Source of the DNA: Marnyiella aurantia
GTDB lineage: Bacteria > Bacteroidota > Bacteroidia > Flavobacteriales > Weeksellaceae
Assembly: GCF_014041915.1 (NCBI RefSeq)
Contig: NZ_CP059472.1
Span: 310,001-374,000 of the forward strand
DNA: 64,000 nt
Reading direction: 5' to 3'
This document shows positions 1 through 17,571 of the stretch, in pieces. A program made the translations under genes and the position numbers. Under the pieces are notes generated by a model. The model had not been told where the DNA came from and made no database searches. It saw nothing but the letters and a program-made list of their open reading frames with translations. The stretch's first letter is position 1, and each line of letters starts with the position of its first letter.

Positions 1-2
1 AC

Positions 3-3000
3 GAGGAAAAGAAAAGAAAAAAAATTCTTAACACGGTTAAAATTAATAATGAGGATGAAATCACATTTCCTGAACTGGAGTACATTAATTTAGTCGTTTC
101 CAAAGAATTAGATCAGGATGAATTCTCATACGCGAAATTCGGTATCAATAAATATTCAGATTTAACAAAAGAACAGCAGAACAAATTCAGTGAAAATGCG
201 GATATAGAAATACTTTTTGGCTTTAGACCATACGATAGTATTGGTAATTACTTTAAAGGTGCTCCAAATTTTTATTTATATTTTCCGCTATCCGAAGAAG
301 TTCATAATTTTAATTTTATTTTACACTGTAATGCCTTTTATCAGGGCGCATCCAGAACTTTTTTACATGAGGGAACTAAAAATGAAGGGGGCATCAATGA
401 ACGGTTATTTGAAGTTATAATAGAAAAGATAGATGATACACTTTCCCGGCTTTCGAAATCTGACAATGCCGCGGACAGTAAAAAGTTTCTGCATTTTTAT
501 GCAGCGCTATTAACTTCGGGCAGAAGCTTTACAAATACGAGAAGATGGATCGACCGACCTTTTGTGGATAAACTCGATAGTCTGTTATTAAAATATATAC
601 CGGTTAAAAAAAATAATCGGGATGAAGGATATATGGTCATCGACAGACCTGATGACGTTTTCATTAAAAAAACTAATCTTGATGTAGATTTTAATAATAT
701 AGATGGTGATAAATATTGGTTCTATTGGGATAATGAAAATTATGAAGACATCTGTATAAAAGCTTCCCAGAAACTTGCACTGAAAGATTTTACGATTTAT
801 AATTTACTCACTGTATCAAAGGTTGAGTACCAACGAATTAACAGTTGGCTGGATAATAATGATGAAAAAACTAAAACCTTTCTTAGAGAAGTTGCTTTAT
901 TGTCAGATGATGAGATAAAAAGTGACCTCTTAAAGTCAAATCTTTTTAATATTGACCTCCTTCATTTTTCAGATAAATCATTCATGTCTTTGAATGAGTT
1001 TGAAGACCGTGAATCAGAAGGTTACTTTCTAATTTATAAAAATCTTAAGGAGATCCGACATTTACTTGAACGTTCAAATCTCAAAATTTCCGTTGCTAAT
1101 ATCGACGAATTTAGGTTTGAAAGATTTTTTAATTACAAACAGAAAAAAGACAGTCAGTTAAGAGGCCATACGGATCTGACGAGATTTTTTTCTAGGCATA
1201 TTGCCGATGAATTCTTAATCAGATTAAATGAGGAAGAGAAATTTCAAATTTTTACCGCTTTCCGAAAGTTTCAGGATGATAATATAACCACTCGTATTAA
1301 AGAACTTAAACTTCTTTCTGATAACACAGGAAAACCTAAAAAATTCAAGAATATTCTTGCATCAACAGATTATCAATGGCTGGAACCATATATGGTACAG
1401 AAAGATAAATATTTCGATGAATACAGGCAATTTCTGATCACATCAAAAGAAGATATTTATCAGAATATTATTTACACTTATTGGAAAAAAATATTTAATG
1501 GGTTAGCATCGAATAATATGCTGACTGATGCAATATCAAAAGATATAGCTGATCTTTACAGCCTAAGTAAGTGGGAAGAAAAAGAACAATCATCACTGGT
1601 AGAAGTAAAATGCATTAAATATAAGAATGAAATAATTGAAGCTGAACCTGTTCTATACAATAGTGCTTTTCTGAAATTTGCTGCGGAAAAGTACACGGAA
1701 TATCAGGACATTTTACTTAAGTACTTTGATACTTATCTTCCAGATATTGAAAATTTAAAATTTGTCACTGCAGGCTCATTTAATTTAGAAGACCAGGAAA
1801 TACCAACGAGATTAAATAAAGAAAACCTATCTGAGGAGGAAATAAAAATAGTACTGGCATTCTTCAAAATCTTAGAATTAAGTTTCTTCGATGTCAATAC
1901 GATTAGTAAAGAAAGAGACTCATTCACAATTTCATCTAGAAATTCGCTGCATCAATTTTTTGTTTCCCATCCTCTAATTCTAGAGGCGGTAAATAAGTCG
2001 AATTTGAAGAATTCCTTTGTTTTACTACCTTCTGAATTTGTTGACTTTTCAAACGATGTTGCATATAACGAACAAAAAATTGCGGGCCATATAATTTCAA
2101 ATTTTACCGATTCCGGATTACGTCGGAATGACTTGTTTAGCGTATTGAAATTTGCTTCTCTGTCATCAAAAAAGACATTTCTGGAGTCAATACCCCACAT
2201 TATTATACATATTGACGGTATTGAATCCGATCTGATGAATGATTACGTGGCCGTACTGGGTGATCTGTTTTCGGGTAACTATTCAGACGAGGAATTAGAT
2301 AAAATCAGTGCTAAAATTAAACTCAAACATGGCGATGAAGAAATCAGTTTAAAATATGTTGATAGTGTCACCAGTACAGTAATCATTAAGGATCTTAACA
2401 ATAATGATATAGCATTATCCAAGTCAAACATATTGGGAATCGATTCAGACATCTGGTTTCAACGCATCTCAGATTTCCATCGAAAAACGGCAACAGAGGG
2501 AATAATATCTGCGAAATCCTCTGAAAAACTTTTTAAGATTACAAGCGAATCTAATAACGAAATGCTCAAAGAAGTATTTTGCAAAAGCATCCCATCCTAT
2601 AGAATCGAAAATAGCCATCAGTTAGCTTTTCTCTTATTTTCAAAGGTTTTCACCACAAAAGAGATAACGCAATTTTATATTTTTAACGCAAATAATGAGT
2701 GGCAAAAATTATCAGGTCAATATTATTTCCATGGAGATCAAAACGCTAAGTTTATTGAGCCGCAATTTATACTCCATGAAAAATTTTCAGAATTAGTTGA
2801 ACTCTTGCATCTAAGTACAAGTAGCATTCTTAATTATGGTCCGCAAAAGGAAGATAGTATTTCTACAACTTTCCTGCTCACAAATGGTGCAGATCCTAAT
2901 GTTTTAATTAAAGATTTATCCTACACATACAAGTTTGCGGATAAGATATCTGAAAGCGAAATGGAAAGGATTGAGTATTTGTACACCGGCTGGCGGGAGT

Positions 3001-5957
3001 TGCCTTTAAATTTGCGTAAGAGTTTTACTGAAAATTTCTATTTTGATAATTGGAAACAGTTTTTAGGGAACGTTGCTCCAATGTTCTATGCATACTCGGG
3101 ATGCACCTTTAACGACGATCTTTTCCCAGCTGCATATAACAAATGGTTAAAGGATAATGATGACAAAATAGCTTTATTAAGAGCGATAGGGTTGTCTGAA
3201 GAAGAAAGTTCTTTGTCAGAATTAAAACATTTCTTCAAGTCAAAAAAAACTGATGAATTTGATATCAGTCGATTAAAAGATATACATCCGGATTTATTAA
3301 TGAAGTTCTTAAAAAATTTATTTTTCACCCATTGCGCTTATAGTTACAATCATCTTTCCTTGGTCACGCAAAAATCAAAAATCGATTGTTTGTGCGAAAT
3401 ACTTCGAATAGTACATAATCAAGATTACACATACATATATTCTTTAGTATATGCCTCCAGAGATACTTTAAAACTCGATTTTGCTCAAAACCATGTTTTA
3501 AAAATTGCTAATAAGGATTTTATCATTGATGATCTTAACATTTATGCTTCAGACGAACTTTTTGAAGAAGATCGTATAGTATATCCAAAATTGTCGCAAT
3601 TAAATTATAAAAGTTCTGAGGAAGTGTATCTTCATGATTCCATTTCAAAAGAAATAGAATGTCAGGAAGAGGATAAAATTATTACTGAAAAATGGAGACC
3701 TGCAGAAGCTGTTTCTGTTAAATATTGCGACAAAATTACGGTGAATTATGATATTCCAATCTTTCCCAAATGGCTTGGTTTTGCCACAAGGAACATTGAT
3801 GATTATTATGTTAATATTATTAATCATTCGGATTATGGTTTTATATCATTTACAGTTTACATAGATAAAAATTATACTTTAGATTATGTCATTGAGCAGT
3901 TAAAAAAAGAAGCAAAGTATGGTGATATTATTCCTGATCTTGAAGAATTATCAAAAATTAAGAAAGATTTTATTACAAACATTGTTCACTCATTGTCGCA
4001 GATTAATCTTAACAATCTTGAGGACGACAATATTGTACAGTTAAAGAAGTTCATTGAACAGCAAGGCGTGAAAGAAGAACGACAGCAGCTTATTGCTTCT
4101 TTGAATAATAATGAAGAAGGATTGGTCAGATATTCATATCTGTGGTTCTACACTTATTTAAAATTACTTGGAACTTTTAACGAAAAATCAAGCAACCGTC
4201 CGCTTAGAAAAATATCATTTAATGCCATTGAAACCACTGGTAAAGACAAATTTTACCTCTTGTCAGGCAACAGCTCTTATCTCTCAGACAGTATTGATGA
4301 TGTTGATAAGCCTTCCTTCAAAATGGTTTTCAAAGATGGTACAAAAGAAATTTTGAACCTTGTTTCCATCTCAAAACAGCATCAGAACCTTATAATTCAA
4401 ACGAGCGAGAAGTTGTCGGAGGAAAAATTCAGAAATGTTTTCCAACTGGAAATTGAGTACGCTCCAATAACTGATCTGTTGGAAAAATTAACCATCGCTT
4501 TTGAAAAATTAAAGCATTGGGAAGATATTAAAGAAGTTTTGCCTTCACTTGAATATGTGTATGGCCCTCCGGGAACTGGGAAAACGCACAATATTTGCCA
4601 AAGAATTATTTCAGAAAATAAAGAAAACGCATCCGCAACTTTTTTTATAATGACTCCTACGAACAAGGCAGCTGACGTAATCGCTGAACGTCTACTGAAG
4701 AATGGTTTTACCAGCTTCCTCCGTTTAAGTGGTCAAACCTCTTTAAACCTACCGGAAGAATATTACACAAACAAATTGTTTGAAGATGATCTGGATGACA
4801 ATAAGGTTTTGATTTCCACAATTCATCGTTTGCCTTACTACGACTTATTCGATGGCGAATCTAATGAAAGATTACATAATTTTAAAAATCACTGGGATTA
4901 CATTGTGGTGGACGAAGCGTCAATGGTAAACTTACCGTATTTGGTTTTTGCACTTCTGAAACTTTCGGAAAGCAACCCACAAGCTAAAATATTGGTTGCG
5001 GGCGATCCTATGCAAATTCCTCCTGTACCGGAAGTTAATGATAGTATCCTGGATGAATTAGATATTGTGGAGGAGAACATTTACAAGATGATGGGTCTTA
5101 AAAGCTTCGATAAAAATAAACAGAATGAGGAAGTTCGTCAGATAGATAAAGTAACCTATCTCGATATTCAGTACAGAAGTATTCCGGAAATTGGAAATCT
5201 CTTTAACCACTACTCTTATGGTGGAAATATTAATAATGAACGTCTTACTGATAGTCAAAAGAAAATTCCCGAGCAATGGAAAAAAATACTGCGCGATACA
5301 TTTAATCTGGTAAATATTCCCGTAAACCAAAATAATGACCTTTACAAGGTCAATAGATTAATTTATAGTTCGTACCATCTATATTCCTGCATACTGACAT
5401 GTGAGATTCTGAAATTCTTAGACGATCACCGGGAAGATGACAAAGTGTGGACCATCGGCATTATAACTCCTTACAAGGCTCAGGCTATTCTGATAAATCG
5501 ATTGAAAGAAAACTTCAATCTCTCAAAAAATCTGAAAATTACTGCCGATACTGTTCATGGTTTTCAAGGAGATCAATGCGAAATCGTTTTCTTCGTGGTA
5601 AATCCCAACAATTACTATTATACAGGTCATGAAAAATCACTTCTTACAAAGCAGTACATCTATAATGTAGCCATAAGTAGAGCGGAAGATTACTTAGTAA
5701 TGATTGCTCCATTTGAAGATATTACCCAAAACACGCATCTTAATAGTCTAATGGAAATTCATGAAAATGAAAACCGTCGAGAGGCCATATGTCTTACTTG
5801 TGACGCGGTGGAAAAATTACTGTTTAAAAATGTAAATTTTATTGAGAAAAACTCTTATGTCACCACACACGACGACATAAATGTTTTTAATAATACTACA
5901 TGGAAATATTACATTAAAAAGGCTTCCACTGCAATTGATTTTCAATTGAATTTTTAA
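3..5957 (+). CDS. Giant sacsin/Hsp90-like protein with C-terminal UPF1-type SF1 helicase (5' partial)
   Basis: The frame is open from the first bases of the window, so the start lies upstream; the GTG at 564 is internal. At least 1984 residues are visible. Residues about 105-125 (LHCNAFYQGASRTFLHEG) resemble the segment that follows the GHKL/Hsp90 ATPase fold in sacsin-like proteins, so an ATPase is expected upstream (inference). A long mostly helical middle of about 1350 residues matches nothing I recognise. The C-terminus is an SF1 helicase: Walker A GPPGTGKT (about 1521), Walker B VVDEAS (1634), AGDPMQIPP (1666), QYRS (1722), VHGFQGDQ (1850) and VAISRAED (1888). A second helicase gene follows after 69 bases (33 if its earlier GTG is used). 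Very AT-rich codon use suggests transfer. A defence role is inferred, not shown. Confidence 0.85.
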   Translation, partial: EEKKRKKILNTVKINNEDEITFPELEYINLVVSKELDQDEFSYAKFGINKYSDLTKEQQNKFSENADIEILFGFRPYDSIGNYFKGAPNFYLYFPLSEEVHNFNFILHCNAFYQGASRTFLHEGTKNEGGINERLFEVIIEKIDDTLSRLSKSDNAADSKKFLHFYAALLTSGRSFTNTRRWIDRPFVDKLDSLLLKYIPVKKNNRDEGYMVIDRPDDVFIKKTNLDVDFNNIDGDKYWFYWDNENYEDICIKASQKLALKDFTIYNLLTVSKVEYQRINSWLDNNDEKTKTFLREVALLSDDEIKSDLLKSNLFNIDLLHFSDKSFMSLNEFEDRESEGYFLIYKNLKEIRHLLERSNLKISVANIDEFRFERFFNYKQKKDSQLRGHTDLTRFFSRHIADEFLIRLNEEEKFQIFTAFRKFQDDNITTRIKELKLLSDNTGKPKKFKNILASTDYQWLEPYMVQKDKYFDEYRQFLITSKEDIYQNIIYTYWKKIFNGLASNNMLTDAISKDIADLYSLSKWEEKEQSSLVEVKCIKYKNEIIEAEPVLYNSAFLKFAAEKYTEYQDILLKYFDTYLPDIENLKFVTAGSFNLEDQEIPTRLNKENLSEEEIKIVLAFFKILELSFFDVNTISKERDSFTISSRNSLHQFFVSHPLILEAVNKSNLKNSFVLLPSEFVDFSNDVAYNEQKIAGHIISNFTDSGLRRNDLFSVLKFASLSSKKTFLESIPHIIIHIDGIESDLMNDYVAVLGDLFSGNYSDEELDKISAKIKLKHGDEEISLKYVDSVTSTVIIKDLNNNDIALSKSNILGIDSDIWFQRISDFHRKTATEGIISAKSSEKLFKITSESNNEMLKEVFCKSIPSYRIENSHQLAFLLFSKVFTTKEITQFYIFNANNEWQKLSGQYYFHGDQNAKFIEPQFILHEKFSELVELLHLSTSSILNYGPQKEDSISTTFLLTNGADPNVLIKDLSYTYKFADKISESEMERIEYLYTGWRELPLNLRKSFTENFYFDNWKQFLGNVAPMFYAYSGCTFNDDLFPAAYNKWLKDNDDKIALLRAIGLSEEESSLSELKHFFKSKKTDEFDISRLKDIHPDLLMKFLKNLFFTHCAYSYNHLSLVTQKSKIDCLCEILRIVHNQDYTYIYSLVYASRDTLKLDFAQNHVLKIANKDFIIDDLNIYASDELFEEDRIVYPKLSQLNYKSSEEVYLHDSISKEIECQEEDKIITEKWRPAEAVSVKYCDKITVNYDIPIFPKWLGFATRNIDDYYVNIINHSDYGFISFTVYIDKNYTLDYVIEQLKKEAKYGDIIPDLEELSKIKKDFITNIVHSLSQINLNNLEDDNIVQLKKFIEQQGVKEERQQLIASLNNNEEGLVRYSYLWFYTYLKLLGTFNEKSSNRPLRKISFNAIETTGKDKFYLLSGNSSYLSDSIDDVDKPSFKMVFKDGTKEILNLVSISKQHQNLIIQTSEKLSEEKFRNVFQLEIEYAPITDLLEKLTIAFEKLKHWEDIKEVLPSLEYVYGPPGTGKTHNICQRIISENKENASATFFIMTPTNKAADVIAERLLKNGFTSFLRLSGQTSLNLPEEYYTNKLFEDDLDDNKVLISTIHRLPYYDLFDGESNERLHNFKNHWDYIVVDEASMVNLPYLVFALLKLSESNPQAKILVAGDPMQIPPVPEVNDSILDELDIVEENIYKMMGLKSFDKNKQNEEVRQIDKVTYLDIQYRSIPEIGNLFNHYSYGGNINNERLTDSQKKIPEQWKKILRDTFNLVNIPVNQNNDLYKVNRLIYSSYHLYSCILTCEILKFLDDHREDDKVWTIGIITPYKAQAILINRLKENFNLSKNLKITADTVHGFQGDQCEIVFFVVNPNNYYYTGHEKSLLTKQYIYNVAISRAEDYLVMIAPFEDITQNTHLNSLMEIHENENRREAICLTCDAVEKLLFKNVNFIEKNSYVTTHDDINVFNNTTWKYYIKKASTAIDFQLNF

Positions 5958-6026
5958 ATCTGAAAGAAGTGATGATAATTCTTTATATAAGTGCATCATT
6001 TAAACGTAACAAATGAAATAAATAAA

Positions 6027-9000
6027 ATGATCAATAAAACTTTACCAACGCGCCACATTTCAGCTAGAGTTCCATGGCACGATAATAAATGGAATGGAAA
6101 AACATGTTGCAATGTTTTAGATAATTCGTTTTGTCGTATCCTTCCGCTAATTGATAATAAAAAAGATGCTGCAATAGAAATAGAAGACCAACTTATTGAT
6201 GGTACTAATATGCCGCCTTGTGTCGCTGAAAAAGGAACTTTTCTATCGCCGCATCCTTTCTCAAGGGAAGTGAGTCACAGTTGGTCACATTTTAATTCTT
6301 TGTTTAAAGAATTCCTTCCAATGAAATATTTTCACAAGCCTTTCTCATTCAATGCAGTTCCCTTTCTTTGGATGATGAAAAAGAAAGGATCTGCGGAAAG
6401 GCCTCACTATTCTGATAAAGCCGGATTATATGAGTTGGATTATGATGTTGATCTTGAAAAGGAAGTGGATTCTAAATTAGGATTTGATGGCAATACATGG
6501 GTGCAGCATCCTCATAACCAAAAAGTGTTGCTTGATGCTTTTTTCGGTTGCCTGAAAAAAGAAAAATCATTGGTGTTTTTTTATAGCAAAGAAACGCCCT
6601 TATCCGAACCGAATGAACGCGTCGTTGTGGGAGTTGCTAAAGTACGTAATAATCCGTCGAATATTTTAGAGTATGAATATCCACCCGGATATAATGGCCA
6701 CAAGAGTTATCCTTGGGACAGATGCGTTGAACATACATTAACTGATAAACAGCCCGATGGTTTTCTGTTGCCTTACCACGAAATATTAGAATTTGCAAAC
6801 AAAAACAACCCGGATATTGACTTACGCGACTATGTTGCTTTTGCTGGCGATCATTTTCAATTCTCTTATGCGTCTGAATTAGTAGAACACGATACTGCCA
6901 TTGATACTTTATTAAATATTGCAGAAAGTCTAAGAAAATCTCAAGAGCTTCTCGGGAAGTCTTTCACATCAGAATTAGATTGGATTGATGAACAGATTTC
7001 ACAAATATGGGATATGCGTGGTGGATTTCCTGGAATGGGCTCAATCTTAACTGCCTTGCAATTTGAAAATGGAAATACAATTGCTTGGGAAATAGAAAAT
7101 CACATTAATAAGAAAGATGGTAATATCCTAACCACCAATCCATGGATGGTTTTTGAGGAAAGCATTTTGGATCCGGAAAAATACTTTGGAAAAAAAGGTG
7201 CTACATTATTTACACCAACTGCCCAAAAGGTTTGGAAATATATTTCCGCTTCAAAAAAAGAATTGTATAAACTTCTCAGCAGATGTCAGCTGAATAATGA
7301 TCAGGCAAAAAATATTATTGAACCAAATGCATATTCTGCGTCGGTTGAAGACATTAAGAACAACCTTTATCTTATTTATGAAATTTTTCGAAAAAAAGGC
7401 TTAAATTTTACTTTTAATCAAATTGACAAAGCACTTTTGCCCCCGGAAAAAATAAGGCAGGCTTTTCCTTTACCAACAGAAAGCGCGCTAACTGATGATC
7501 TTGATCTCAGAAGGATGCGTGCATTAACCGTATCTATTTTAGAAAACTCTTCCTTAGAAGGACATTCCCTCTTGCCTATCAACAATGTAATCGAGAGAAT
7601 AAAAGAAAAGACTGTTAACGACAGCTTTCCAATTAGTACCGACATTTTAACTGCAATAGCGGAAGAAGAATTTTTTCGGCAGGAAGTTTTGAGCATTCTT
7701 CCTTCTAAAGACAACCATATTCATTTTCTAAAATTGAACAGATTGCAGCAGATGAAGGAAGTAATTAGACAGCGTATAAATATTAATAAAATTAAAACTA
7801 AACCGTATAATATAGATAAGGATTGGTTACAAATTGTAAATAATCATCTTCCTTTCAATGAATTAAAAAAATCCGATCAAGATGAAGAGGATGAAAAACT
7901 AGCTCGTGAAGAAAAAGCTCAAGCGCTGAAAATACTTACGAACTATTCTTTCTCCGTATTGATTGGTCCGGCGGGTTCAGGTAAAACTACGTTATTAGAA
8001 ATTTTTGAACAGTTGCCTGAAATAAAAAATGGTGGACTGCTTAAGTTGGCTCCTACCGGAAAAGCCAGGGTGAAATTAGGCTCAAATGCTAAAACTTTGG
8101 CCCAATTTCTTCATCCTCACCGTTATGATGCCGCATCAGGTAATTATCATATTAACCCTGGGATATTAAGATCCTCAAATTATAAAAATGTAATTATAGA
8201 TGAAGCTTCAATGTTGACCGAGGAGCAATTAGCAGCGCTTTTTGATTCCTTAGGACCCGTTGACAGAATAATTCTTGTTGGGGATTATAGACAATTACCA
8301 CCAATCGGAACGGGACGTCCGTTTGTTGATATTATCAACCAGATCAAACCGGAAAACTTCCCCCAAAAAAATATATTTTCAGCAGATGCGTACGCTGAAT
8401 TAAAGAAAATCCGCCGTCAGACGACAGTTGAAGATAGAAGATGGGACGTGGAATTAAGCAGATGTTTTGGCGATAACCCGACAAAAGAGGATTTGGAAGT
8501 ATTCCATGCAGTATCTTCTGGTAAAATATCTTCCAAACATATTAGGTTGGTTAAATGGTATGATAGCAAGGATTTTAGGGAAAAGTTCGAAAGTGCGGTA
8601 ACTGAAGAACTCGAACTTAATCCAGAAGATATTGAAAACTCTTTTAACCAAAAAATCGGCGGAACCCTTTATAATAATAAGGTTTACTTTAAAGCTGGCA
8701 TATCTGAAAAAGCAATCGAACAATGGCAGGTTTTATCACCTGTAAATGGTTACGGATATGGTGTAAAGGAAATCAATAAATTTTTTCAAAAAAAATATAG
8801 GAGTTCCTATATTGCTGACGCACTGAATATTCAAAACGGAGCAAACGGTTTTTTCCAAAAAAGAAAAATTGCAAAGCCTGTCTTGGATGATAACATTGTG
8901 TATGGTGATAAAGTCATAAATCTAAAGAATACAACTTGGGAGAATTGGCAGCAAATAAATCCGTATTCTTCAAAAAACGAGGCGTTAAATTACATAGCCA

Positions 9001-9827
9001 ACGGGGAGATCGGAATTCTTACGGGTGAATATCGGGGAGTAAGCAGTGTTAAAAAAGGAGATTTTAAAATTGAGATAGCGTTTTCGACACAGCCTGGCTA
9101 TAGTTATGTTTTTAAAGAAAAAGATTTGGGCCCGGAAAGTAAATATTCATTTGAATTGGCCTATGCTATTACCGTACATAAATCCCAGGGGAGTGGTTTC
9201 AAGAAGGTCTTCTTTGTTATGCCTTCAAAAGGCGCGATAATGAGTAAAGAATTACTTTATACAGCTTTGACAAGACAGGAAGATAAAATAATCATTTTTC
9301 ATCAGGGGGATTTCCGAGATTTTATTAAGCTTGTTTCCACAGAAGCTTCAGCAACTGCAAAGAGATTTACGGATTTATTTAATTTGCCAGACATTAAGCA
9401 AATTGAAAAAAAATGGTATGATGCTCGATACATTAATATCAGTGAACGGGGGGAGCCAATGATAAGTAAAAATGAAGTAATTATCGCGAACTGTCTTCAT
9501 AAATATAACGATAATCTTACTTATGCCTACGAAGACAAACTTGTCCTAACTAAACCAGATAGAGTGATAAAACCTGATTTTACGATTGATAATCTGACTA
9601 CAGGTAAACGGTTTTATTGGGAGCATTTGGGGATGATGTCAAATGAAGTTTATCGAGAAAAATGGCTACAAAAACTAAAAGCGTATAAAGAGGAAGGTTT
9701 TGTTTTATTTGAAGAATCTAATGAAACAAACGAAAAGATACTAATCATTACAGAAGAAAATCCTAATGGAGGAATCAATTCACAATCAATTAATGACATA
9801 ATAAAAAAATATATCCTCGAAATTTAA
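6027..9827 (+). CDS. RecD2-like SF1 helicase with C-terminal PD-(D/E)XK nuclease-like domain
   Basis: About 1266 residues. The ATG at 6027 is preferred because the recognisable N-terminal motif (TRHISARVPWHDNKWNG, followed by two cysteines) begins just after it; a GTG at 5991 would add 12 residues. Numbered from 5991, the N-terminal 600 residues are unassigned. The helicase core has Walker A GPAGSGKT (about 658), IIDEAS (735), VGDYRQLPP, VHKSQG (1061) and ALTR (1092), the pattern of RecD/RecD2 helicases. The C-terminal 120 residues contain KNEVIIANCL (1159), KPDFTI (1194) and YWEHLGM (1209), whose spaced Glu, Asp and Glu fit a PD-(D/E)XK nuclease. It lies just downstream of the sacsin-like helicase and shares its AT-rich composition; the two probably form one operon. 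It could be repair rather than defence. Confidence 0.85.
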   Translation: MINKTLPTRHISARVPWHDNKWNGKTCCNVLDNSFCRILPLIDNKKDAAIEIEDQLIDGTNMPPCVAEKGTFLSPHPFSREVSHSWSHFNSLFKEFLPMKYFHKPFSFNAVPFLWMMKKKGSAERPHYSDKAGLYELDYDVDLEKEVDSKLGFDGNTWVQHPHNQKVLLDAFFGCLKKEKSLVFFYSKETPLSEPNERVVVGVAKVRNNPSNILEYEYPPGYNGHKSYPWDRCVEHTLTDKQPDGFLLPYHEILEFANKNNPDIDLRDYVAFAGDHFQFSYASELVEHDTAIDTLLNIAESLRKSQELLGKSFTSELDWIDEQISQIWDMRGGFPGMGSILTALQFENGNTIAWEIENHINKKDGNILTTNPWMVFEESILDPEKYFGKKGATLFTPTAQKVWKYISASKKELYKLLSRCQLNNDQAKNIIEPNAYSASVEDIKNNLYLIYEIFRKKGLNFTFNQIDKALLPPEKIRQAFPLPTESALTDDLDLRRMRALTVSILENSSLEGHSLLPINNVIERIKEKTVNDSFPISTDILTAIAEEEFFRQEVLSILPSKDNHIHFLKLNRLQQMKEVIRQRININKIKTKPYNIDKDWLQIVNNHLPFNELKKSDQDEEDEKLAREEKAQALKILTNYSFSVLIGPAGSGKTTLLEIFEQLPEIKNGGLLKLAPTGKARVKLGSNAKTLAQFLHPHRYDAASGNYHINPGILRSSNYKNVIIDEASMLTEEQLAALFDSLGPVDRIILVGDYRQLPPIGTGRPFVDIINQIKPENFPQKNIFSADAYAELKKIRRQTTVEDRRWDVELSRCFGDNPTKEDLEVFHAVSSGKISSKHIRLVKWYDSKDFREKFESAVTEELELNPEDIENSFNQKIGGTLYNNKVYFKAGISEKAIEQWQVLSPVNGYGYGVKEINKFFQKKYRSSYIADALNIQNGANGFFQKRKIAKPVLDDNIVYGDKVINLKNTTWENWQQINPYSSKNEALNYIANGEIGILTGEYRGVSSVKKGDFKIEIAFSTQPGYSYVFKEKDLGPESKYSFELAYAITVHKSQGSGFKKVFFVMPSKGAIMSKELLYTALTRQEDKIIIFHQGDFRDFIKLVSTEASATAKRFTDLFNLPDIKQIEKKWYDARYINISERGEPMISKNEVIIANCLHKYNDNLTYAYEDKLVLTKPDRVIKPDFTIDNLTTGKRFYWEHLGMMSNEVYREKWLQKLKAYKEEGFVLFEESNETNEKILIITEENPNGGINSQSINDIIKKYILEI

Positions 9828-9851
9828 ACCCCCGCCCAGCCGCAGCAAGTA

Positions 9852-9966
9852 ACATAATGACAATTATAGGCACAGGCCAGCCGCAATAACGTTGCCCTTC
9901 TCTCCGCTTCGCTGCGTTACGTTACGTGCAAACCAGCACCATAGTGCCTATAATTGGAAATTATGT
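9852..9966. repeat. 115-bp imperfect inverted repeat with 20-bp arms
   Basis: The outer arms (9852-9873 and 9944-9966) pair as 7 bp plus 13 bp (CAATTATAGGCAC with GTGCCTATAATTG), separated by a 2-versus-3-base internal loop. The 70-base interior has weaker internal complementarity around CGCAATAACG and CGTTACGTGC, so a long single-strand hairpin is possible. It begins 25 bases after the helicase gene stop. It is too bulky, and lacks a T-run, to be a simple terminator. It could be a mobile or recombination-site hairpin, but no integrase or reverse transcriptase is present in the window. Confidence 0.7.
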
Positions 9967-10027
9967 AAAATGCTTTCCTTTCCTTCGGGCAAGCCCTCAG
10001 GAGCCACCGCCTTCCGGCTCCCCGCTA

Positions 10028-10049
10028 CACAAAGTGTTCTCACTTCGTG
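10028..10049. repeat. Short hairpin CACAAAGTG-TTCT-CACTTCGTG
   Basis: Nine-base arms with one G/A mismatch around a TTCT loop. Closely related hairpins (cgaagtg-tcct-cacttcg) occur near 15739-15759, at the other end of the gene-poor stretch, so this is a locally dispersed repeat. Confidence 0.6.
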
Positions 10050-10573
10050 CCCGATTGAAGTGATGTCCGCGGGACGAAGTGGTCTTGTACCTGTACATTT
10101 GTCCCTTTTGCGGTCAGTCTAAAGTACGGATTAAACGCCTTAAAAAAATGTCTTTAGCACTCCCAGTAACAGAACCAGCTGAGCGAACTTAAATTTGGCG
10201 CAGGCATGGCAGATTTTGAACATTCACACACGGTACAGGCAATCAGTATGACGACGGCCAACATCGTAGAGTTGGATATTTTGGCCAAATCCTCCAATTC
10301 CCAAATGGTACCCTATACCGATCACAGATTACATGACCGGAACTGTACCTGCACTAACCTCCAGGCCCTTGACACGTTTCTGCCCACCAAAGGCAGCTGC
10401 TGCCCGTGATGTCATCAGTTCAGCCTGAGGTTGAATCTCTGGGACTTTATGACTAATGTTAAGTGTGCTCCTGCTGGCATTTGTAAGATTCCATTGCCGT
10501 GCAGCCATTAGACAAGAAGAATATAATTTTCTGCGGGTGATTATGTCTGCTTAGAAAGGCTAATCACAAAATA
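10050..10573. other. Gene-free stretch
   Basis: No convincing gene, RNA or site was recognised. A 67-codon open frame at 10206-10409 and a broken frame on the opposite strand look like chance or very decayed sequence. Confidence 0.5.
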
Positions 10574-10595
10574 AATCCTGAGAGGCCTCAGGATT
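10574..10595 (-). terminator. Rho-independent terminator of the XRE regulator
   Basis: A perfect 9-bp stem (AATCCTGAG / CTCAGGATT) with a 4-base loop lies just past the stop codon of the regulator. On the minus strand it is followed by ATTTTG, a short T-run. It could also work weakly on the + strand, where GTTATTATTTT follows. Confidence 0.75.
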
Positions 10596-10599
10596 GTTA

Positions 10600-11010
10600 T
10601 TATTTTAGAAGTTTCTCAAGTCGCTCCATCATCTCATCCTTCTCCTTCAGCATCCTTTCGTACAACGCAATCTTTTCCTCGTGCAACTCAACTAATTTAT
10701 CGATTGGATTGATAGTGGCATCTTTTATATATAAAGAATGCATTACCGAATTATCATTGTTATTAATTGTATTTGCAATAATATTAATCGCAGCTTGCTC
10801 ATCAAAATTCTGAAAAGCCTCCACCGGGATTTTCAGCACTTCCGATATTTTCTTTAATAACGGATCTTCGATCACATCCTTTTGTTCGAGCAGAGATATT
10901 TTGTTCTGGTTCCAGTCCTCACCCAGGTCGAAGGCCAACGCCTCCTGCTTAATGCCCAGCATTTCTCTGAATCTTTTTACGTTGCGTCCCTGATGTATTT
11001 TCTGTTCCAT
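10600..11010 (-). CDS. XRE-family helix-turn-helix regulator with C-terminal coiled coil
   Basis: 136 residues. Residues about 8-65 form an HTH_3-type domain (VKRFREMLGIKQEALAFDLG, then a second helix ending in LLEQ). After a linker the C-terminus (about 100-136) is a charged heptad-like helix rich in E, K, L and M, suitable for dimerisation. Such small XRE proteins are common in flavobacteria as solitary regulators or as repressors in mobile elements. Here it stands alone in a repeat-rich zone. A palindrome just upstream may be its own operator. The target is unknown. Confidence 0.85.
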   Translation of the reverse strand: MEQKIHQGRNVKRFREMLGIKQEALAFDLGEDWNQNKISLLEQKDVIEDPLLKKISEVLKIPVEAFQNFDEQAAINIIANTINNNDNSVMHSLYIKDATINPIDKLVELHEEKIALYERMLKEKDEMMERLEKLLK

Positions 11011-11036
11011 GACTATAGTTTTCTGAGCCTAAAGAT

Positions 11037-11050
11037 AAGGTTATTACCTT
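11037..11050. promoter_or_regulatory. Possible autoregulatory operator AAGGTTATTACCTT
   Basis: A 14-base inverted repeat (AAGGT-TATT-ACCTT) lies 27 bases upstream of the XRE regulator start and next to a TATCTTTA sequence on the minus strand that resembles a -7 element. Its position is what a self-repressing XRE protein would use. The assignment rests on symmetry and location only. Confidence 0.35.
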
Positions 11051-11509
11051 TAAAGTCTAAATTCAAATTGAAAAATCATCCGGGAATTATACTATTCTGA
11101 CGTATAATTTATCCCTTCTTCGGATAAATGATCCTGCGGCACTTTATACATCGTATTCATAATAATTGGAGTCATGGAAAACGAAAAAGAATAAACCTAA
11201 ACTCTAAATTTTGGGGAACCACCGGTCTGACAGCCCCTTTCACCCACTGCTCTTGCAGATCCCTTGCCCGCTTTTAAATCGAAATTTGCAGGATAGTCGT
11301 TGCTCCGGTCTGATTAATCTCACCATGGAATTACGAATCTGTATTATCCTCGCATCGAAACGGTGGTAAAGATTTTCTCTAACGGCGGATAGTACAGCAT
11401 CTAATCAATCTTTAAATTGTTGCCGTGCACGCCAGGGGATATTTTATTCCGCCACTAACTTGAATACCTGCACGCACCCTCTCAAATTTGTTTACTAATC
11501 TTAAAACAA
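11051..11509. other. Intergenic stretch between the XRE regulator and the broken gene
   Basis: It holds one small hairpin (TTTATCC-cttcttc-GGATAAA, 11108-11128) but no open frame or RNA gene that I can support. Confidence 0.45.
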
Positions 11510-13132
11510 ATGATGATGGAAAAATCAGCTCACTCAAATTTTGCAGGACTCCATGATGAAGTCCTGATTAACCGGTTAAAGCAGGCGGCCCGCGACGGTT
11601 GTTTATTAGCGGTTTACCGGGTTCCTCATGGTATACCGGGCAGCGAACGCCTGCTTTTAATTACAGAGACAGAAGCCGCCGCCGACGCACTGCGCACTGC
11701 CAAATGGGTGCTGAAGACGGCCGACCATTCGCCTGTCAGTATCAGCAGCCTCCACCGTGCTGAACGGTTTTTTGAAGTTGGAAATCCTTTTGCATACTGC
11801 TACTACCGACCTTCGTTCCTTGTTTGGTGTCAGGAGAGGTTCGCGGGGCTCTTCAGCAATTACGCCGGCGGCAAAGCTTTCAAGAAGAAATTCTCTTCCT
11901 TTAAGGAATCCTATTATGACGACCGCGATATGCTTCTCTCGGAAGCTGGGCGGTTTTATAACCTCAATTCACCCATCAGTACCTACCTGACTTATATTAC
12001 GATCTTTGAACATGACCTGCGGTATCTGGAAAAGCTGTATGCGGGTGATTTCTATCCGGATGAAAGCCTGCACACCAGAATAACCATCCTGATTCCTTAT
12101 ATACCGGAGCTGCAGAAACTCTTTGTCCGCCAAAACGGAACCAACTACTATCTGATCAACAAGCTGCAAGCTGCAATCGAAGTAGCGCACAATGACGAAA
12201 CCTACATCAACACTGCCCTATATGAGTCCATTAAAATTGTAGAGCGGCAACTGTATAACCGGGTAGCCGCCCGGTATATAGAACTCAAATCTGCCGTTCG
12301 GAAAGAACCCGGACCGACAGCGGTGATTTCCCCAGCCCGGGAAGAACAGCTGGACGATCCGCAGCTTATCATCGTGAGGGACATCCTGATAAAAATAGCG
12401 GCACCCGAAGAAGTCTTTCTATTTCACAAAGCGGAAACCTTTCAGATAAATGCCCACGTTCCCGCCACCGTTTATTATCTTTTTGTCATAGGGCAGCGCA
12501 TAGGAAACACGAGCATTCAAAGTATACAGCAGGCGGTGGCGGCACGTACTCAGAATAATGTTTCTGTGGTTATTCTGGCGCACCGTCGCATCACCGTTCA
12601 GGAAAACCTTTGTTTTCCATCAGCAGTTTATACAGCAGATCATGTCGCCTGCCAACAGGATTTTTTCCTCATCGGACATGCTTCCTGAACTTCACTGGGA
12701 AGTTCCTTATGAAGCTACTTATGGTGATCTGAGCTGTATCACAGGGGAGTTAAACAACACCTTGCACAGTACTTCCACCTGCGGTCACATATGCAGGGTG
12801 ATAACAGTGAAGGCCTGTTTCACCTTTTCGCACAGGGTTATCTGCGGCTGCTTAGGCTCATTACCTACAGTTCACTCTATGCCTACCTGCCCAAATGGAC
12901 CTCCGCTTGGGATACCTGGCAACTCTGTCTCTTTGCAGTCCCCTCTCTGAACGAGCTGGAATATTTGTTTGGCAGGATCGGCCAGGATTTCCACAAACAT
13001 ATTGACTCCCATTTGCGGTACTCTGACCTGGTGGGTAGGCTAAGCTCACAAGAACTTACGGTGATGGATGAGATTCTGACCCGCCTTTCGGAAAAACTGG
13101 CCAGCATTATTAAAGTAAAAAACCTTGAATAA
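11510..13132 (+). pseudogene. Frameshifted gene of unknown function
   Basis: The first frame encodes 392 residues to a stop at 12688. A plausible continuation is found by moving into the next frame near 12600-12615 (HQQFIQQIMSPANRIFSS then LPELHWEVPYEATYGDL), and a second shift near 12732 returns to the original frame (SELYHRGVKQHLAQYF onward to KNLE, stop at 13132). The two shifts compensate (+1 then -1), giving about 540 residues if repaired. The start may be any of three consecutive ATG codons. I do not recognise the family with confidence; the last 120 residues faintly recall HEPN-type helical domains. Either a decaying gene or two local sequence errors. Confidence 0.6.
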
Positions 13133-13195
13133 GACTGAAACTGCTGCGGCTGTTGTCTTCTGTTTTGAAACTGAAAGTTAGAATCTTAATCCGGA

Positions 13196-13849
13196 CTAAC
13201 GGCTGATTAACTCAATGAAGTCCTCTGTTAAAAAGGAGTTCTTTTTAAGTTTTTCCATAATGGCAGGTTCATTATTAGATAATTCAAGTATCTTTCCGGT
13301 ATCTACAATTGGAACAATCATTCTGTGAGCCATATTACCTTTTAGTGGGTACGGATTCTTTTTATCAACTAAAAGTATTTTATAAGAATTACCTTTAGTA
13401 TCCTTCCATGTGCTTTTGGGTTTTATGTTTAATGCCGCGCCAAGTAAACCTCCTCCATACGGGTTATTATACCCGATTGCTTTGCTCTCTTTCGTTTCAT
13501 CCAGCAATACGACCATATACCTGTCATTGATGAAGTCGAATTTAGCGAAAACATTGTTCCTGTAAATAACACCTGCGTTCATCATATTAAAATATAAATT
13601 TTTGCCGTCTGATAATGCCCAGGCAGATGCTGCAGCTTTTGCTTTCTTATTATTGTCAATGTATCTGTAATCTGAAAATTGTATGTATTGATCACTGATT
13701 TCTTTTATTTCGCCGGCAATGCCTGGCTGCATTGCATTACCGGTTAAATAATCCTCATACAAAGCATAAAACTGAAACTCTTTATTATTGGTTTGTGCAG
13801 GGAAAACCTGAACTGTACAGATGAATAGTAACGCAAATAAATGCTTCAT
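13196..13849 (-). CDS. Secreted or periplasmic protein of unknown function
   Basis: 217 residues. The first 18 residues (MKHLFALLFICTVQVFPAQ) form a signal peptide with a cleavage region after FPA; there is no lipobox cysteine. The mature part is mixed alpha/beta with a Gly-rich turn (GYNNPYGGGLLGAAL) near residue 130. Related small exported proteins are frequent in Chryseobacterium-type genomes, often annotated only as DUFs. It stands alone on the minus strand with no operon partner, so no role can be inferred. Confidence 0.75.
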   Translation of the reverse strand: MKHLFALLFICTVQVFPAQTNNKEFQFYALYEDYLTGNAMQPGIAGEIKEISDQYIQFSDYRYIDNNKKAKAAASAWALSDGKNLYFNMMNAGVIYRNNVFAKFDFINDRYMVVLLDETKESKAIGYNNPYGGGLLGAALNIKPKSTWKDTKGNSYKILLVDKKNPYPLKGNMAHRMIVPIVDTGKILELSNNEPAIMEKLKKNSFLTEDFIELISR

Positions 13850-14389
13850 AATTTTTTTATTGAGCCCCTGCTTATGATTTCAGTCTGCAGGGGGTATTAT
13901 TATAAGTCCTTGTAAATATAAGGTATGTACTGCGCTTAAGCTCATTTTTGGCCCGCAATTTCAATTTACTTCATAAGTTTTTCTGTATTTTTTTTGTTTT
14001 GTCCCATGGATACGACAGAACTGCTTTTATCAGGGGTCACAAATGCTGTTTACTAAAATTCTGTTTTTGTAAAAGAGGATTGTTATTTGCTCCCCACAGC
14101 AGCAATCGTCTTCCTTGATCAAAAGCAAATATATACAAAATCCACTTTGGTCATAATCTGGGGTTGGTTCGGACTAATGTTTTGTATATGTAAGAATAGT
14201 ATCCAAAGGCAAATTTCACTGAAAGCGTTTCATTGACCGCCCATGCCTTCCGGACGATCTGCCTGTCGACTTTTACATTTTAAAGAAATTGTCGGTGCAG
14301 CGTAAACGGGAGGGACATAGGTTTGCCGGAATTATCTTTTGTTATCTTTTAATTAGAGTGGTTATAATCCTTACAAATAACTGTACTTA
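13850..14389. other. Intergenic stretch with a hairpin near the secreted-protein start
   Basis: CCCCTGC (13865-13871) pairs with GCAGGGG (13887-13893) just upstream of the start at 13849, so the 5' leader could fold. A minus-strand TATATTTG near 14120 resembles a -7 promoter element. Nothing else was recognised. Confidence 0.4.
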
Positions 14390-15040
14390 TTAATATGATT
14401 CTAAGATTACTGCCCCCTGCAAAAAACCATCGCCAGAAATCATAACAAGATCCGTAAATCCTTTTCTGCTTCTGAACTGTCTTTTAACAATTACTTCGCG
14501 CTCTGCAATCCCGTCCGGATACGAGTGAGAATGCTTTCTGAAAACACCTTTGTTAAAATTGATCTGAACTTCCAGCAGTTCCATGGGTCTGTGGCTTACC
14601 TCCGAAACCTCAATCCTTATTTGCGTGCCCTTCCGCTTTGCGCTAAGTAACTTCGGAAATGCAGCGTGTTTTTTATGGAAATGAAAACCGGCCAACAGCG
14701 CCTGTCCGTCTATTGTATCCAGTCCGCCGGCTACCGTCCTTTCACCCGGCGCGCATGGGTCAAAACTCCGCAGCTGCAGCATCAGCCTGTTTACCCGCTG
14801 GTACAGATACCGGTCATTGAGTTTCAGAAGCTCTTCCGCCACAGCCTGCCTCAGGACTTTTCCAGCTGCTGAAGCCCGGCCGAATTCAGTATTGTAAAGA
14901 ACCCTTTCCTCTTCCCCTTTGGTCTTTGCACCTTTCCTTTTTCCCGCGGCTTTCCTTACTACCTGCTTTCCGTTTAGCACATAATAAACGTACCCGCCCA
15001 CCTTTCCGCTAATTTTAAACAGGGTATGAAACTTTCCCAT
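14390..15040 (-). CDS. Small basic protein of unknown function
   Basis: 216 residues. The N-terminus (KISGKVGGYVYYVLNGKQVV then KAAGKRKGAKTKGEEE) is Gly/Lys/Tyr-rich and strongly basic, like the start of a family of flavobacterial hypothetical proteins with the pattern SGK-G-x-YY-x-NGK. The remainder contains an Arg/Lys-rich beta-like tail. No signal peptide, membrane segment or catalytic motif is visible. Neighbours are repeats and non-coding DNA on both sides. The basic head could bind nucleic acid, but that is speculation. Confidence 0.65.
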   Translation of the reverse strand: MGKFHTLFKISGKVGGYVYYVLNGKQVVRKAAGKRKGAKTKGEEERVLYNTEFGRASAAGKVLRQAVAEELLKLNDRYLYQRVNRLMLQLRSFDPCAPGERTVAGGLDTIDGQALLAGFHFHKKHAAFPKLLSAKRKGTQIRIEVSEVSHRPMELLEVQINFNKGVFRKHSHSYPDGIAEREVIVKRQFRSRKGFTDLVMISGDGFLQGAVILESY

Positions 15041-15400
15041 AGCTAAGACGTATTAATACAAAACAGCATAAATTTACAGAAAGTATTGACTTAAATGCCA
15101 AATATTTACTACATTTAATCCTGCTGCAGATTTTAATGGACCGATATATTCTCTCCTTCGGAAATTTGCATGTTTTAACTCATTAATTTCTCTCCAGCCC
15201 CTTTCCCTAAAGACTTCCCACACCTTGCACCGTAGTTGCAGCATACATACCAGCCGGATACTTCACTGATAACCCGTATCCTCCCCGGGTATACATGGGT
15301 CTTACGTCTATAGTACGCCTGCCGACAACAATAGGAATCAACCATCAGACATTCCGCGTCCGCATCCGCACATTAACCTCCACCTATGGGGCGTGTCAAA
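15041..15400. other. Gene-free stretch
   Basis: No supported gene, RNA or site. Confidence 0.5.
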
Positions 15401-15402
15401 GT

Positions 15403-15431
15403 TTTAAACCTTGACACGGCTCTCAAAACCC
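15403..15431 (+). repeat. Direct repeat copy 1 (TTTAAA..CTTGACACGG type)
   Basis: TTTAAACCTTGACACGGCTC plus eight more bases match 25 of 28 positions of the copy at 15677-15704, in the same orientation. Confidence 0.65.
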
Positions 15432-15676
15432 ACATTGAGATTGCCCAAATAGCTCGCGCAGTCGCAATTGGAACGATGGCATTGTAAAGTTGCGCGGAGA
15501 TTAAGCCAACCTACGGGGTTATTCGATTATAGCGTACCTACGGCACGCCAAAACATCCTGATCTCAACCGCTACACAGATAATGTTCCTATGGAACATAC
15601 ACCCGCATAATTAAGGATGATATGATCAACCGTTGTGGTCTTGTTTTTCTTTTTACTCAAACTAACCGTATCTTGG

Positions 15677-15704
15677 TTTAAAACTTGACACGGTTCTCAG
15701 AACC
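15677..15704 (+). repeat. Direct repeat copy 2
   Basis: Second copy of the 28-base unit, 274 bases downstream of the first. It runs directly into the GCGCGAAGTGT repeat pair. Confidence 0.65.
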
Positions 15705-15760
15705 ACGCTGCGCGAAGTGTTCTCAGAAGCACGCTGCGCGAAGTGTCCTCACTTCGTGCC
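15703..15760. repeat. Tandem CACGCTGCGCGAAGTGT pair with CACTTCG hairpin
   Basis: CACGCTGCGCGAAGTGT occurs twice, 27 bases apart. The second copy forms a hairpin with the following CACTTCG (arms CGAAGTG/CACTTCG, loop TCCT), the same type as the hairpin at 10028-10049. Confidence 0.6.
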
Positions 15761-16004
15761 GGTGAACTTCAAATAGCAGCCTCTTAATCCCGGAGCACCG
15801 ACACCTCTACAACGCTATTTGGGTAGCTGAACGCAATTGAAGCCCGCATAGTTGAAGAAAAAAATGTGACGTGATTATCCTTAATTTGTTCACTCACGGG
15901 TTAAACCCTCTCACGTTTCCTCAACACCAATTTTGGATTTGCCGCGTCCCTACCTTCGTCCGCTCCCTGACAGGACTGCCCCGGTATTTGAGAAGAATAA
16001 TTTC

Positions 16005-16068
16005 ACCCCTTCGGGGTTTCAATGCTGGAACGATACTTAAATCTATAATTATTACACCCCTTCGGGGT
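16005..16068. repeat. Two copies of hairpin ACCCCTTCGGGGT
   Basis: Identical 13-base palindromes (ACCCC-TTC-GGGGT) at 16005-16017 and 16056-16068. They are short GC hairpins in otherwise AT-rich non-coding DNA; neither follows a gene closely enough to be its terminator. Confidence 0.7.
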
Positions 16069-16179
16069 TATTCTAACCTTCGAACCTCTAACCTCTAACT
16101 TCTATACTGTGGTTAGATGAGCGAGAACAAAGAACTAAGAGTAAAGACTTTAAAACGAAAAATGAACCAACGAACGATG

Positions 16180-16480
16180 CCAGATTTACTCCGCGCCCTT
16201 TGCGAAGCCTCCGTGCCTCTGTGGTTAGATTATACGCAAGGATAAAAAGTAACGAACGGTTCCAGATTGACTCTGCGCCCTCTGTAAAGCCTCTGTACCT
16301 CTGTGGTTAGATTAGACGCAAGGATAAAGAACCAACGAACGGTTCCAGATTTACTCTGTGTCCTCTGTGAAGCCTCTGTGCCTCTGTGGTTAGATTAGAC
16401 GCAAGGATAAAGAAGTAACGAACGGTTCCAGATTTACTCTGTGTTCCCTGTGAAGCCTCTGTGCCCTCTGTGGTTAGATT
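16180..16480. repeat. About 83-bp tandem repeat, nearly four copies
   Basis: Units begin at 16180, 16262, 16345 and 16428 (periods 82, 83, 83). Each starts with CCAGATT, continues through a CTCTGTGGTTAGATT-type segment and, except for the last partial unit, ends with CGAACGGTT. A more diverged part-unit precedes them from about 16107. On the minus strand the core reads TAACCACAGAGGCACAGAGG, a word found as intergenic repeats in many bacterial genomes. Units are contiguous with no unique spacers, so this is not a CRISPR. It ends 72 bases from the 3' end of galE. Confidence 0.85.
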
Positions 16481-16551
16481 CAGATTGCTTACCGCAAATA
16501 AACTTCTTACCATTGTACGCCTTCTCGATTTTGCAGCTTTACGCCTCCCCG

Positions 16552-17571
16552 CTACACTTCTCTACTTTCCAGATACTTCTGCCACTGCCAGGTCGTTCTC
16601 AGAGCTTCTTCCAGCGGAGTATCGGCCTTCCAGCCAAGTTCCCGCTCTGCTTTGTTGGCATTGGCATAGGCGATTGTGATGTCGCCCGCTCGGCGGTCAC
16701 AGATCTGGTAGGGAACTTCTACACCATTGGCACGTTCATAGGCCTGCACGACTTCCAGAACTGAGGATCCTTTACCGGTGCCCAGATTGTATATGTCGAT
16801 GACCTTCTCCTCACCCGATGAGATAAGTTTTTGAAGCGCCTGAACATGGGCCTTAGCCAAATCGACTACATAGATATAATCACGGACGGCGGTCCCGTCT
16901 TCGGTGGGATAATCGTTTCCCCAGATATTCAGTTTCTCACGGATTCCCGAGGCCGTTTGGGTCACGTAAGGCACAAGGTTATTTGGTATACCCAAAGGAA
17001 GTTCACCCAGTTTTGCAGAGGGATGGGCACCAATCGGATTGAAATAACGCAGAAGGGATACTTTTCGGTGGTGAGCCTCAGCAAAATCTTTAAGGATCTC
17101 CTCGCCCATCTGTTTGGTCTTGCCATAAGATGATTCGGGCGTTTTCATCGGGGTGCTTTCGTCAATAGGCTGAACATCGGCCTGACCGTACACGGTACAC
17201 GACGAACTGAAAATGAAATTCGAGATATTCCGGACTTTAAATTCCTGCAGGATATTGATAAGCGTAAAAAGATTGTTCTCGTAATAGTCCAGCGGTTTTT
17301 CCTGGCTCTCGCCTACCGCTTTATAGGCAGCGAAATTGATGCAGCCGTCTATCTGGTGGGCATCGAAAACCTGATTGAGCAATTCTTTTCTCTTGAGGTC
17401 AAAGGGATAGAAAATGGGTTTCTTTCCGGTGATCTCCTCAATATTGTTCAGTATAAACCTTTCAGAATTGGAAAGATCATCTACGATCACGACCTCAAAA
17501 TTGCTGTTCAGAAGTTCCACTACAGTATGCGAACCGATATAGCCAAGGCCGCCCGTTACAAGAATTGTCAT
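16552..17571 (-). CDS. galE: UDP-glucose 4-epimerase
   Basis: 339 residues, normal length. It interconverts UDP-glucose and UDP-galactose (and possibly the N-acetyl forms) for polysaccharide and lipopolysaccharide precursors in the cytoplasm. The N-terminal Rossmann motif TGGLGYIGSHT binds NAD, DDLSNS follows, and the short-chain dehydrogenase active site is seen as SSSCTVYG with the YGKTK catalytic Tyr/Lys. A minus-strand -7 element lies 18 bases upstream of the start. The gene stands at the edge of the conserved chromosome, next to the repeat-rich zone. Confidence 0.95.
   Translation of the reverse strand: MTILVTGGLGYIGSHTVVELLNSNFEVVIVDDLSNSERFILNNIEEITGKKPIFYPFDLKRKELLNQVFDAHQIDGCINFAAYKAVGESQEKPLDYYENNLFTLINILQEFKVRNISNFIFSSSCTVYGQADVQPIDESTPMKTPESSYGKTKQMGEEILKDFAEAHHRKVSLLRYFNPIGAHPSAKLGELPLGIPNNLVPYVTQTASGIREKLNIWGNDYPTEDGTAVRDYIYVVDLAKAHVQALQKLISSGEEKVIDIYNLGTGKGSSVLEVVQAYERANGVEVPYQICDRRAGDITIAYANANKAERELGWKADTPLEEALRTTWQWQKYLESREV

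Follow-up and report, generated by a model that had tools for sequence, protein, structure and literature searches.

Tiamat is a single-gene system whose protein, TmtA, has an N-terminal GHKL/sacsin-type ATPase. GHKL-S5 ATPases in general (MutL, MORC, TopoVI-B, Hsp90) close as dimeric clamps upon ATP binding, and MutL couples this closure with a helicase and with a nuclease of restriction fold. An equivalent logic has been proposed for MORC and paraMORC, GHKL-S5 proteins found with helicases and restriction-endonuclease-fold nucleases in restriction-modification (R-M) operons (Iyer et al., 2008; PMC2292703), and in VcSduA, a GHKL-Shedu protein, the GHKL ATPase is proposed to gate a PD-(D/E)xK nuclease (PMC12137116). 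In Hachiman a sensor helicase releases or gates a nuclease (PMC12278908), and Mokosh carries a PLD-family nuclease (PMC10952713). Two adjacent genes of Marnyiella aurantia share features with each of these. They lie at the left edge of the stretch analyzed here, 64,000 nt of a 2.6-Mb single-contig genome (G000:C1:310001-374000, “the window” below). Gene 1 encodes a GHKL-S5 (sacsin/MORC/Hsp90-like) ATPase fused to a UPF1-type superfamily 1 (SF1) helicase, and gene 2 a RecD2-type helicase with a conserved nuclease-like tail. The chances seem about even that the two make up a modular anti-phage pair, cargo that is embedded in or adjoins methylation-based defence loci such as bacteriophage exclusion (BREX) and type I R-M operons.

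The start of gene 1 is 931 bp outside the left edge, at window coordinate -930, and the genome record gives the full protein as 2,295 amino acids (G000:C1:309070-315957), with an N-terminal GHKL/sacsin ATPase, a middle region, and a C-terminal SF1 helicase of UPF1/IGHMBP2/DNA2 type. Pfam recognizes SACS (46.4 bits; cut-off 32.8) and HATPase_c_3 in residues 62-157. When a profile built from 18 homologues is compared with the PDB, its N-terminus matches the sacsin crystal structures 5v44-5v47, while the closest solved structures to the C-terminus are SMUBP-2/IGHMBP2, DNA2, SETX/SEN1, and UPF1. The helicase is recognized by Pfam AAA_12 (78 bits), AAA_11 (48 bits), and AAA_19, and its motifs (GPPGTGKT Walker A, DEAS box) are invariant across 18 homologues. 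Because the start of gene 1 falls outside the window, its N-terminal half was modelled through a homologue (L057, residues 1-1200; mean predicted local distance difference test score, pLDDT, 79.5, poor at 14-76 and 129-148). Residues ~36-576 of this model match sacsin SR1 (Z 10.4), MORC3, SMCHD1, MLH1, and Hsp90, with Z values within about 1-2 of one another, so that the GHKL-S5 fold class is supported but no single relative within it.

Gene 2 encodes 1,278 amino acids if read from the GTG at 5991 and 1,266 from the ATG at 6027; the latter, preceded by an A-rich stretch, is the likelier start because homologues begin near there. A profile search identified D. radiodurans RecD2 (3e1s, 9.9e-48) and E. 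coli RecD (4.8e-43), and a model of residues 79-1278 (mean pLDDT 66.9) matches RecD/RecD2 with Z 15-17 over ~450 residues. In the tail, E1162, P1195-D1196-F1197, E1211-H1212, and K1228 are invariant in 19 homologues, and the predicted order of elements is alpha-beta-beta-beta-alpha-beta, with D1196 and E1211 placed on successive strands. Such residues and predicted topology would suit a PD-(D/E)XK domain whose lysine has been displaced, the probable identity of the tail, but Pfam gives no recognition, which is why “nuclease-like” is used here. Toward the N-terminus is a motif of His, Trp, and Cys residues, of which H22 is invariant in 19/19 homologues and H30, C39, C48, and C77 in 18/19 (a Vibrio copy deviates). 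This is possibly a metal-binding site, and the N-terminus matched no known family in the Pfam scan. Fold searches listed no match for either the tail or the N-terminus; the ATPase and helicase parts dominate such searches, so this does not argue against a known fold.

An earlier note, made from the sequence of the window without database searches, had anticipated much of this architecture: two giant genes in the same direction, both present as open frames; a spacing of about 70 bases, which fits the 69 bp measured from ATG 6027 (33 bp from GTG 5991); a UPF1/DNA2-type and a RecD2-like helicase; and a GHKL ATPase inferred upstream, which is real and lies beyond the window. The nuclease-like domain that it pointed out has the invariant residues and predicted topology given above, and no Pfam match. 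The pair is also AT-rich, as the note had said, with 32.7% GC in the gene 1 part and 35.3% in gene 2, compared with 40.8% in the neighbouring BREX operon and ~44% in the flanks.

Table 1. Features of the gene pair and its surroundings, in window coordinates
Feature	Position	Strand	Basis or remark
Gene 1	3..5957, open at window left edge	+	GHKL/sacsin-UPF1 helicase protein; residues 312-2295 in window
UPF1/IGHMBP2/DNA2-type SF1 helicase core, gene 1 residues ~1826-2215	4545..5714	+	Pfam AAA_19/AAA_11/AAA_12; PDB profile matches
Gene 2	5991..9827	+	RecD2-type helicase with nuclease-like tail (PADLOC PDC-S68)
N-terminal H/W/C motif, gene 2 (H22, W29-H30, C39, C48, C77)	6054..6221	+	Conservation
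RecD/RecD2-like SF1B helicase region, gene 2 residues ~458-1125	7362..9365	+	3e1s match; model match
Nuclease-like tail, probably PD-(D/E)XK, gene 2	9447..9785	+	Invariant residues; predicted topology
Island, right-hand half	1..16560	.	~34-kb strain-specific island, G000:C1 ~291.9-326.6 kb, including BREX III operon

PADLOC matches each gene only separately. Residues 1-1808 of gene 1 align to TmtA (PDLC03970, 2.5e-161) over positions 1-1530 of the 1552 in the profile, nearly the whole model; the match stops there, and gene 1 differs from Tiamat in adding the UPF1-type helicase and in being paired with a RecD2-nuclease gene. Gene 2 matches the candidate family PDC-S68 (PDLC05065) over its full length (E = 0, 1324 bits, profile 3-1219/1221). 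PADLOC treats this family as a single-gene candidate, whereas here and at nine other loci it is the tight neighbour of a GHKL-UPF1 gene. PMC12988326 (citing Payne et al., 2024) attributes the PDC families to a “guilt-by-embedding” survey; on that account, embedded cargo of the present sort would be the kind expected.

The MORC/paraMORC operons offer the same combination of GHKL-S5 ATPase, helicase, and restriction-endonuclease-fold nuclease beside DNA methylases, but their helicases belong to superfamily 2, while both helicases of the pair are SF1 (UPF1-type and RecD2-type) and the nuclease-like domain is carried on the second. Mokosh MkoA (5e-31) and MkoC (1e-23) are the nearest PADLOC helicases to gene 1, through a UPF1-type similarity confined to the helicase part and excluding the GHKL part; no PLD domain was found in Pfam and PADLOC scans of either gene. 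Hachiman (HamAB) and Gabija share the logic of helicase plus nuclease. Among the PADLOC matches, however, there is neither HamA (DUF1837) nor HamB, GajA (TOPRIM) is unmatched, and GajB (UvrD-like) appears only at ~1e-4, on generic helicase motifs. VcSduA also joins a GHKL ATPase to a nuclease, but as a single protein, with DUF4263 and no helicase. A search of the open literature returned no named system for the pair, in keeping with the earlier note, and nothing on PDC-S68; nor were the GHKL-UPF1 fusion, its recurrent pairing with PDC-S68, or the association of the family with BREX I, BREX III, type I and (distantly) type III R-M found described there.

The pair recurs. Genome contigs were scanned with an alignment of three gene 1 proteins, giving 44 loci, and tight same-strand pairs with gaps of 0-17 bp were found at nine further loci, all in Bacteroidota. 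Gene 2 comes first in seven (L052, L053, L056, L057, L063, L069, L086) and gene 1, as in the window, in two (L054, L055). Four of the pairs (L052, L055, L057, L063) are flanked by hsdS and hsdR within type I R-M operons that end in a YgjP-like metallopeptidase gene; the hsdS-hsdR operon genes were identified by PADLOC and Pfam in L052 and L055 and by profile in L057 and L063. Upstream of the pair are hsdM-hsdS in L069 and, at ~8 kb and on the strand of the pair, a BREX type I operon in L086. For L053, L054, and L056, with pair gaps of 9-12 bp, the ~10 kb fetched showed neither R-M nor BREX genes, a sign that the pair is able to travel alone. A looser arrangement is found in L067 (Pontibacter), where brxC and pglXI of a BREX III operon enclose gene 2, and gene 1 is convergent at the end of that operon. 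Relatives are thus not always single, dispersed, or core genes, the outcome that the earlier note had named as telling against it. Occurring as it does in type I R-M operons and BREX-free loci, the pair is also not a core component of BREX.

Two other observations concern the loci themselves. L061 has decayed copies of both genes, and gene 1 is broken by stops or frameshifts in L059 and L066 as well; the broken copies indicate that, unless maintained, the module decays. Immediately upstream of gene 2 in L053 (5305-6342) and L069 (2293-3327) is a gene of ~345 amino acids with a PD-DExK-like match in both and DUF6602 in L053, possibly an optional third component.

Relatives in which the GHKL and helicase parts are separate bear on how gene 1 is built. 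In L072, L076, L078, L080, and L082 a GHKL gene without a fused helicase is followed directly by a separate UPF1-type helicase gene. Downstream of the TmtA-like GHKL genes of L080 (9122-11422) and L082 (14692-17034) this helicase is itself fused to the RNase-like PIN_4, and in L079 (13410-15779; Dolichospermum) the helicase position beside a TmtA-like gene is taken by a gene with a DarT (single-stranded DNA ADP-ribosyltransferase) domain. Distant fusions of the two parts are also found: one of 1,783 amino acids flanked by pglX and pglZ in a Balneola BREX I operon (G297/L087), and others after type III mod-res genes on the Hymenobacter plasmid pHsw1 (L023:4688-26891), whose cluster includes a gene 2 relative, and the Chryseobacterium plasmid pA2BH1 (L024:12155-24532). 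Taken together, fused and split forms point to GHKL plus UPF1-type helicase as a recurrent unit with variable partners, the split relatives providing a Rosetta-stone argument for cooperation between the two. A scan of viral contigs returned no relatives of gene 2 and one distant relative of gene 1, a TmtA-helicase fusion on a contig classed as viral (L095, IMG/VR, 9845-14614).

Both genes are rare. Among 395 sampled Bacteroidota genomes, nine contain gene 2 relatives; gene 1 has seven matches there, only those of the window and G033 being full-length at high identity. Given this rarity, nine tight adjacencies make chance a negligible explanation. The sample, however, was drawn through a gene 1 search and both genes occur singly as R-M cargo, so a shared hotspot explains part of the adjacency. 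Gene 2 alone is R-M operon cargo in G143, G053, and G292. Gene 1 without a nearby gene 2 adjoins type I R-M genes in L051, L058, L062, L073, and, weakly, L059, and is by BREX I and Qat in G033; in L058 and L062 it is accompanied by a PtuA-like AAA ATPase with hsdM/hsdS (MADS-like matches). Methylation-system genes were found near 14 of 22 close gene 1 loci and 2 of 24 helicase-less GHKL relatives (Fisher p~1e-4), a hand count over the fetched stretches that is biased by short contigs, some of them among the controls; on longer contigs only, chosen by hand, p~0.002. Over ten genomes the protein distances of gene 1 and gene 2 correlate (r=0.53, permutation p=0.02; r=0.84 without L086).

The view of the two genes as a modular pair draws on the conserved ATPase, helicase, and nuclease-like motifs, the recurrence, and the enrichment near BREX and type I R-M genes. 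The “candidate new defence operon” of the earlier note holds as regards domain content, defence character, and recurrence; it is less new than proposed, each half matching a PADLOC model (TmtA, PDC-S68), and is not free-standing, since it trails a BREX III operon. A division of labour, with gene 1 as sensor or clamp and gene 2 as effector on DNA, is proposed because of the family precedents in MutL, MORC, Hachiman, and VcSduA. Gene 1 would be an ATP-gated sensor or platform whose GHKL domains clamp, as a dimer, onto a nucleic-acid intermediate, either aberrant or invading, that is engaged by its own helicase. The 5'-3' RecD2-type motor of gene 2 would unwind the captured DNA, letting the PD-(D/E)XK-like domain cut it, much as in MutL (GHKL) with UvrD and MutH, or in Hachiman with its sensor helicase and nuclease. 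The neighbouring R-M or BREX genes might supply a self/non-self mark or damaged DNA ends, or might do no more than share their expression and transfer with the pair.

Several observations weigh against the modular pair. Relatives of either gene are found intact where the other is missing, those of gene 1 in, e.g., L060, L062, L065, L073, and G033 and those of gene 2 in G143, G292, and plasmids of Rhizobium and Vibrio, and the nearest relative of the window's own gene 2 (G194, 65%) has no detected gene 1. On the gene 2 tree the paired proteins do not make one clade; unpaired ones separate them into at least four places. In L086 gene 2 is ~70% identical to the L052 group but gene 1 only ~30%, which suggests a swap of partners. 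Scattered pairing, the G194 case, and the L086 swap together mean that some of the adjacency may reflect a shared insertion hotspot. As for function, the gene 2 tail was recognized by no Pfam family in the scan, and the UPF1-type helicases and PIN-fused relatives could equally indicate RNA.

The alternative that survives best is that these are two independent defence genes, a Tiamat-like gene with a fused helicase and a PDC-S68 gene, which are neighbours only as shared cargo of the same insertion sites (hsdS-hsdR, within or after BREX). This is possible, if on balance rather unlikely. The intact single copies, including gene 2 alone in three R-M operons, the separate places of pairing on the tree, the varying gene order, and the classing of PDC-S68 as a single-gene candidate would all fit, and DarTG2 is documented as unrelated cargo embedded at the hsdS-hsdR site (PMC12255303). 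It accounts less well for the pairs of L053, L054, and L056, which are closely spaced and had neither R-M nor BREX genes detected within ~10 kb, for the fact that both gene orders are tight and same-strand, and for protein distances that correlate save for one swap.

A more doubtful alternative divides the substrates: gene 2 would act on DNA and gene 1 on RNA, as a UPF1-like helicase gated by its GHKL part and sensing or dismantling the transcripts of phages, possibly abortively. RNA helicases are numerous in the UPF1/SETX/IGHMBP2 branch, the split relatives L080 and L082 have a PIN_4 RNase fused to the helicase, and the nearest PADLOC helicases are those of Mokosh; against this, DNA2 is about equally close, the neighbouring systems here act on DNA, and L079 has a DarT-fused neighbour that modifies DNA. 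Equally doubtful is a stronger form of the modular pair, a self-contained two-gene system in which the GHKL-UPF1 sensor licenses the RecD2-nuclease effector, making it a portable degradation module that would read the DNA state left by BREX I, BREX III, or type I R-M and dock to none of them in particular.

Least probable of all is that the two proteins are accessory subunits that extend restriction by BREX or type I R-M, where they might, for instance, degrade DNA captured or cut by that system, and are inactive without it: the hand-counted enrichment (14/22 against 2/24, some control contigs being short), the R-M operons of Iyer et al. (2008; PMC2292703), and the presence of one gene family with BREX I, BREX III, type I and, in distant relatives, type III R-M lend it some appeal, but it would require a single protein family to dock to four unrelated systems, no such system was detected near three of the pair loci, and the GC contents of the pair (33-35%) and the BREX operon (~41%) suggest that they were acquired separately.

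To the left of the window lies a type III BREX operon that carries additional cargo. Its genes, all on the strand of gene 1, are in order brxF, brxC, PDC-M64A, a helix-turn-helix (HTH) gene, a gene for 144 amino acids, pglXI, a hipB-like gene, hipA, brxHI, pglZ, and brxA, with gene 1 beginning 193 bp past the last. PADLOC identifies the components BrxF (4e-7), BrxC (3e-273), PglXI (2e-276), BrxHI (2e-257), PglZ (5e-47), and BrxA (2e-9). PDC-M64A and the HTH gene are thus between brxC and pglXI, and the hipB-like HTH and hipA toxin genes (L002:10386-12043; G000:C1:302386-304043) are inserted between pglXI and brxHI. DISARM was rejected, its marker PF09369 having no match in this genome. PglZ (PF08665) alone was dropped as a BREX marker and counted only where beside brxC/pglX or brxH; most of its matches of ~520 amino acids are presumably PorX-like response regulators, common in Bacteroidota.

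The genes flanking the island are ~0.7-1.8 kb apart in two congeneric genomes (G436, G437) and ~35 kb apart here, so the BREX operon, the pair, and the low-gene zone to ~16.5 kb make up one strain-specific island. Gene 1 is absent from all three congeneric genomes examined (3/3). A VapE-like gene at the left end (L002:745-1740) is a hint of mobile-element origin. The repeat-rich, low-gene neighbourhood pointed out earlier does have some repeats, chiefly an ~83-bp unit in four tandem copies (16161-16465) just within the right end; it is the right part of the same island, and its tandem repeats are ordinary.

To our knowledge the mechanism by which BREX excludes phage is not understood, and many BREX and R-M operons have extra genes that are unexplained. 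A pair found inside both kinds of locus is a candidate for a degradation step common to them, or at least for a second layer of immunity. The fused and adjacent forms also suggest that a UPF1-type helicase is often the working partner of Tiamat-type GHKL proteins, which would alter how that family is annotated and tested.

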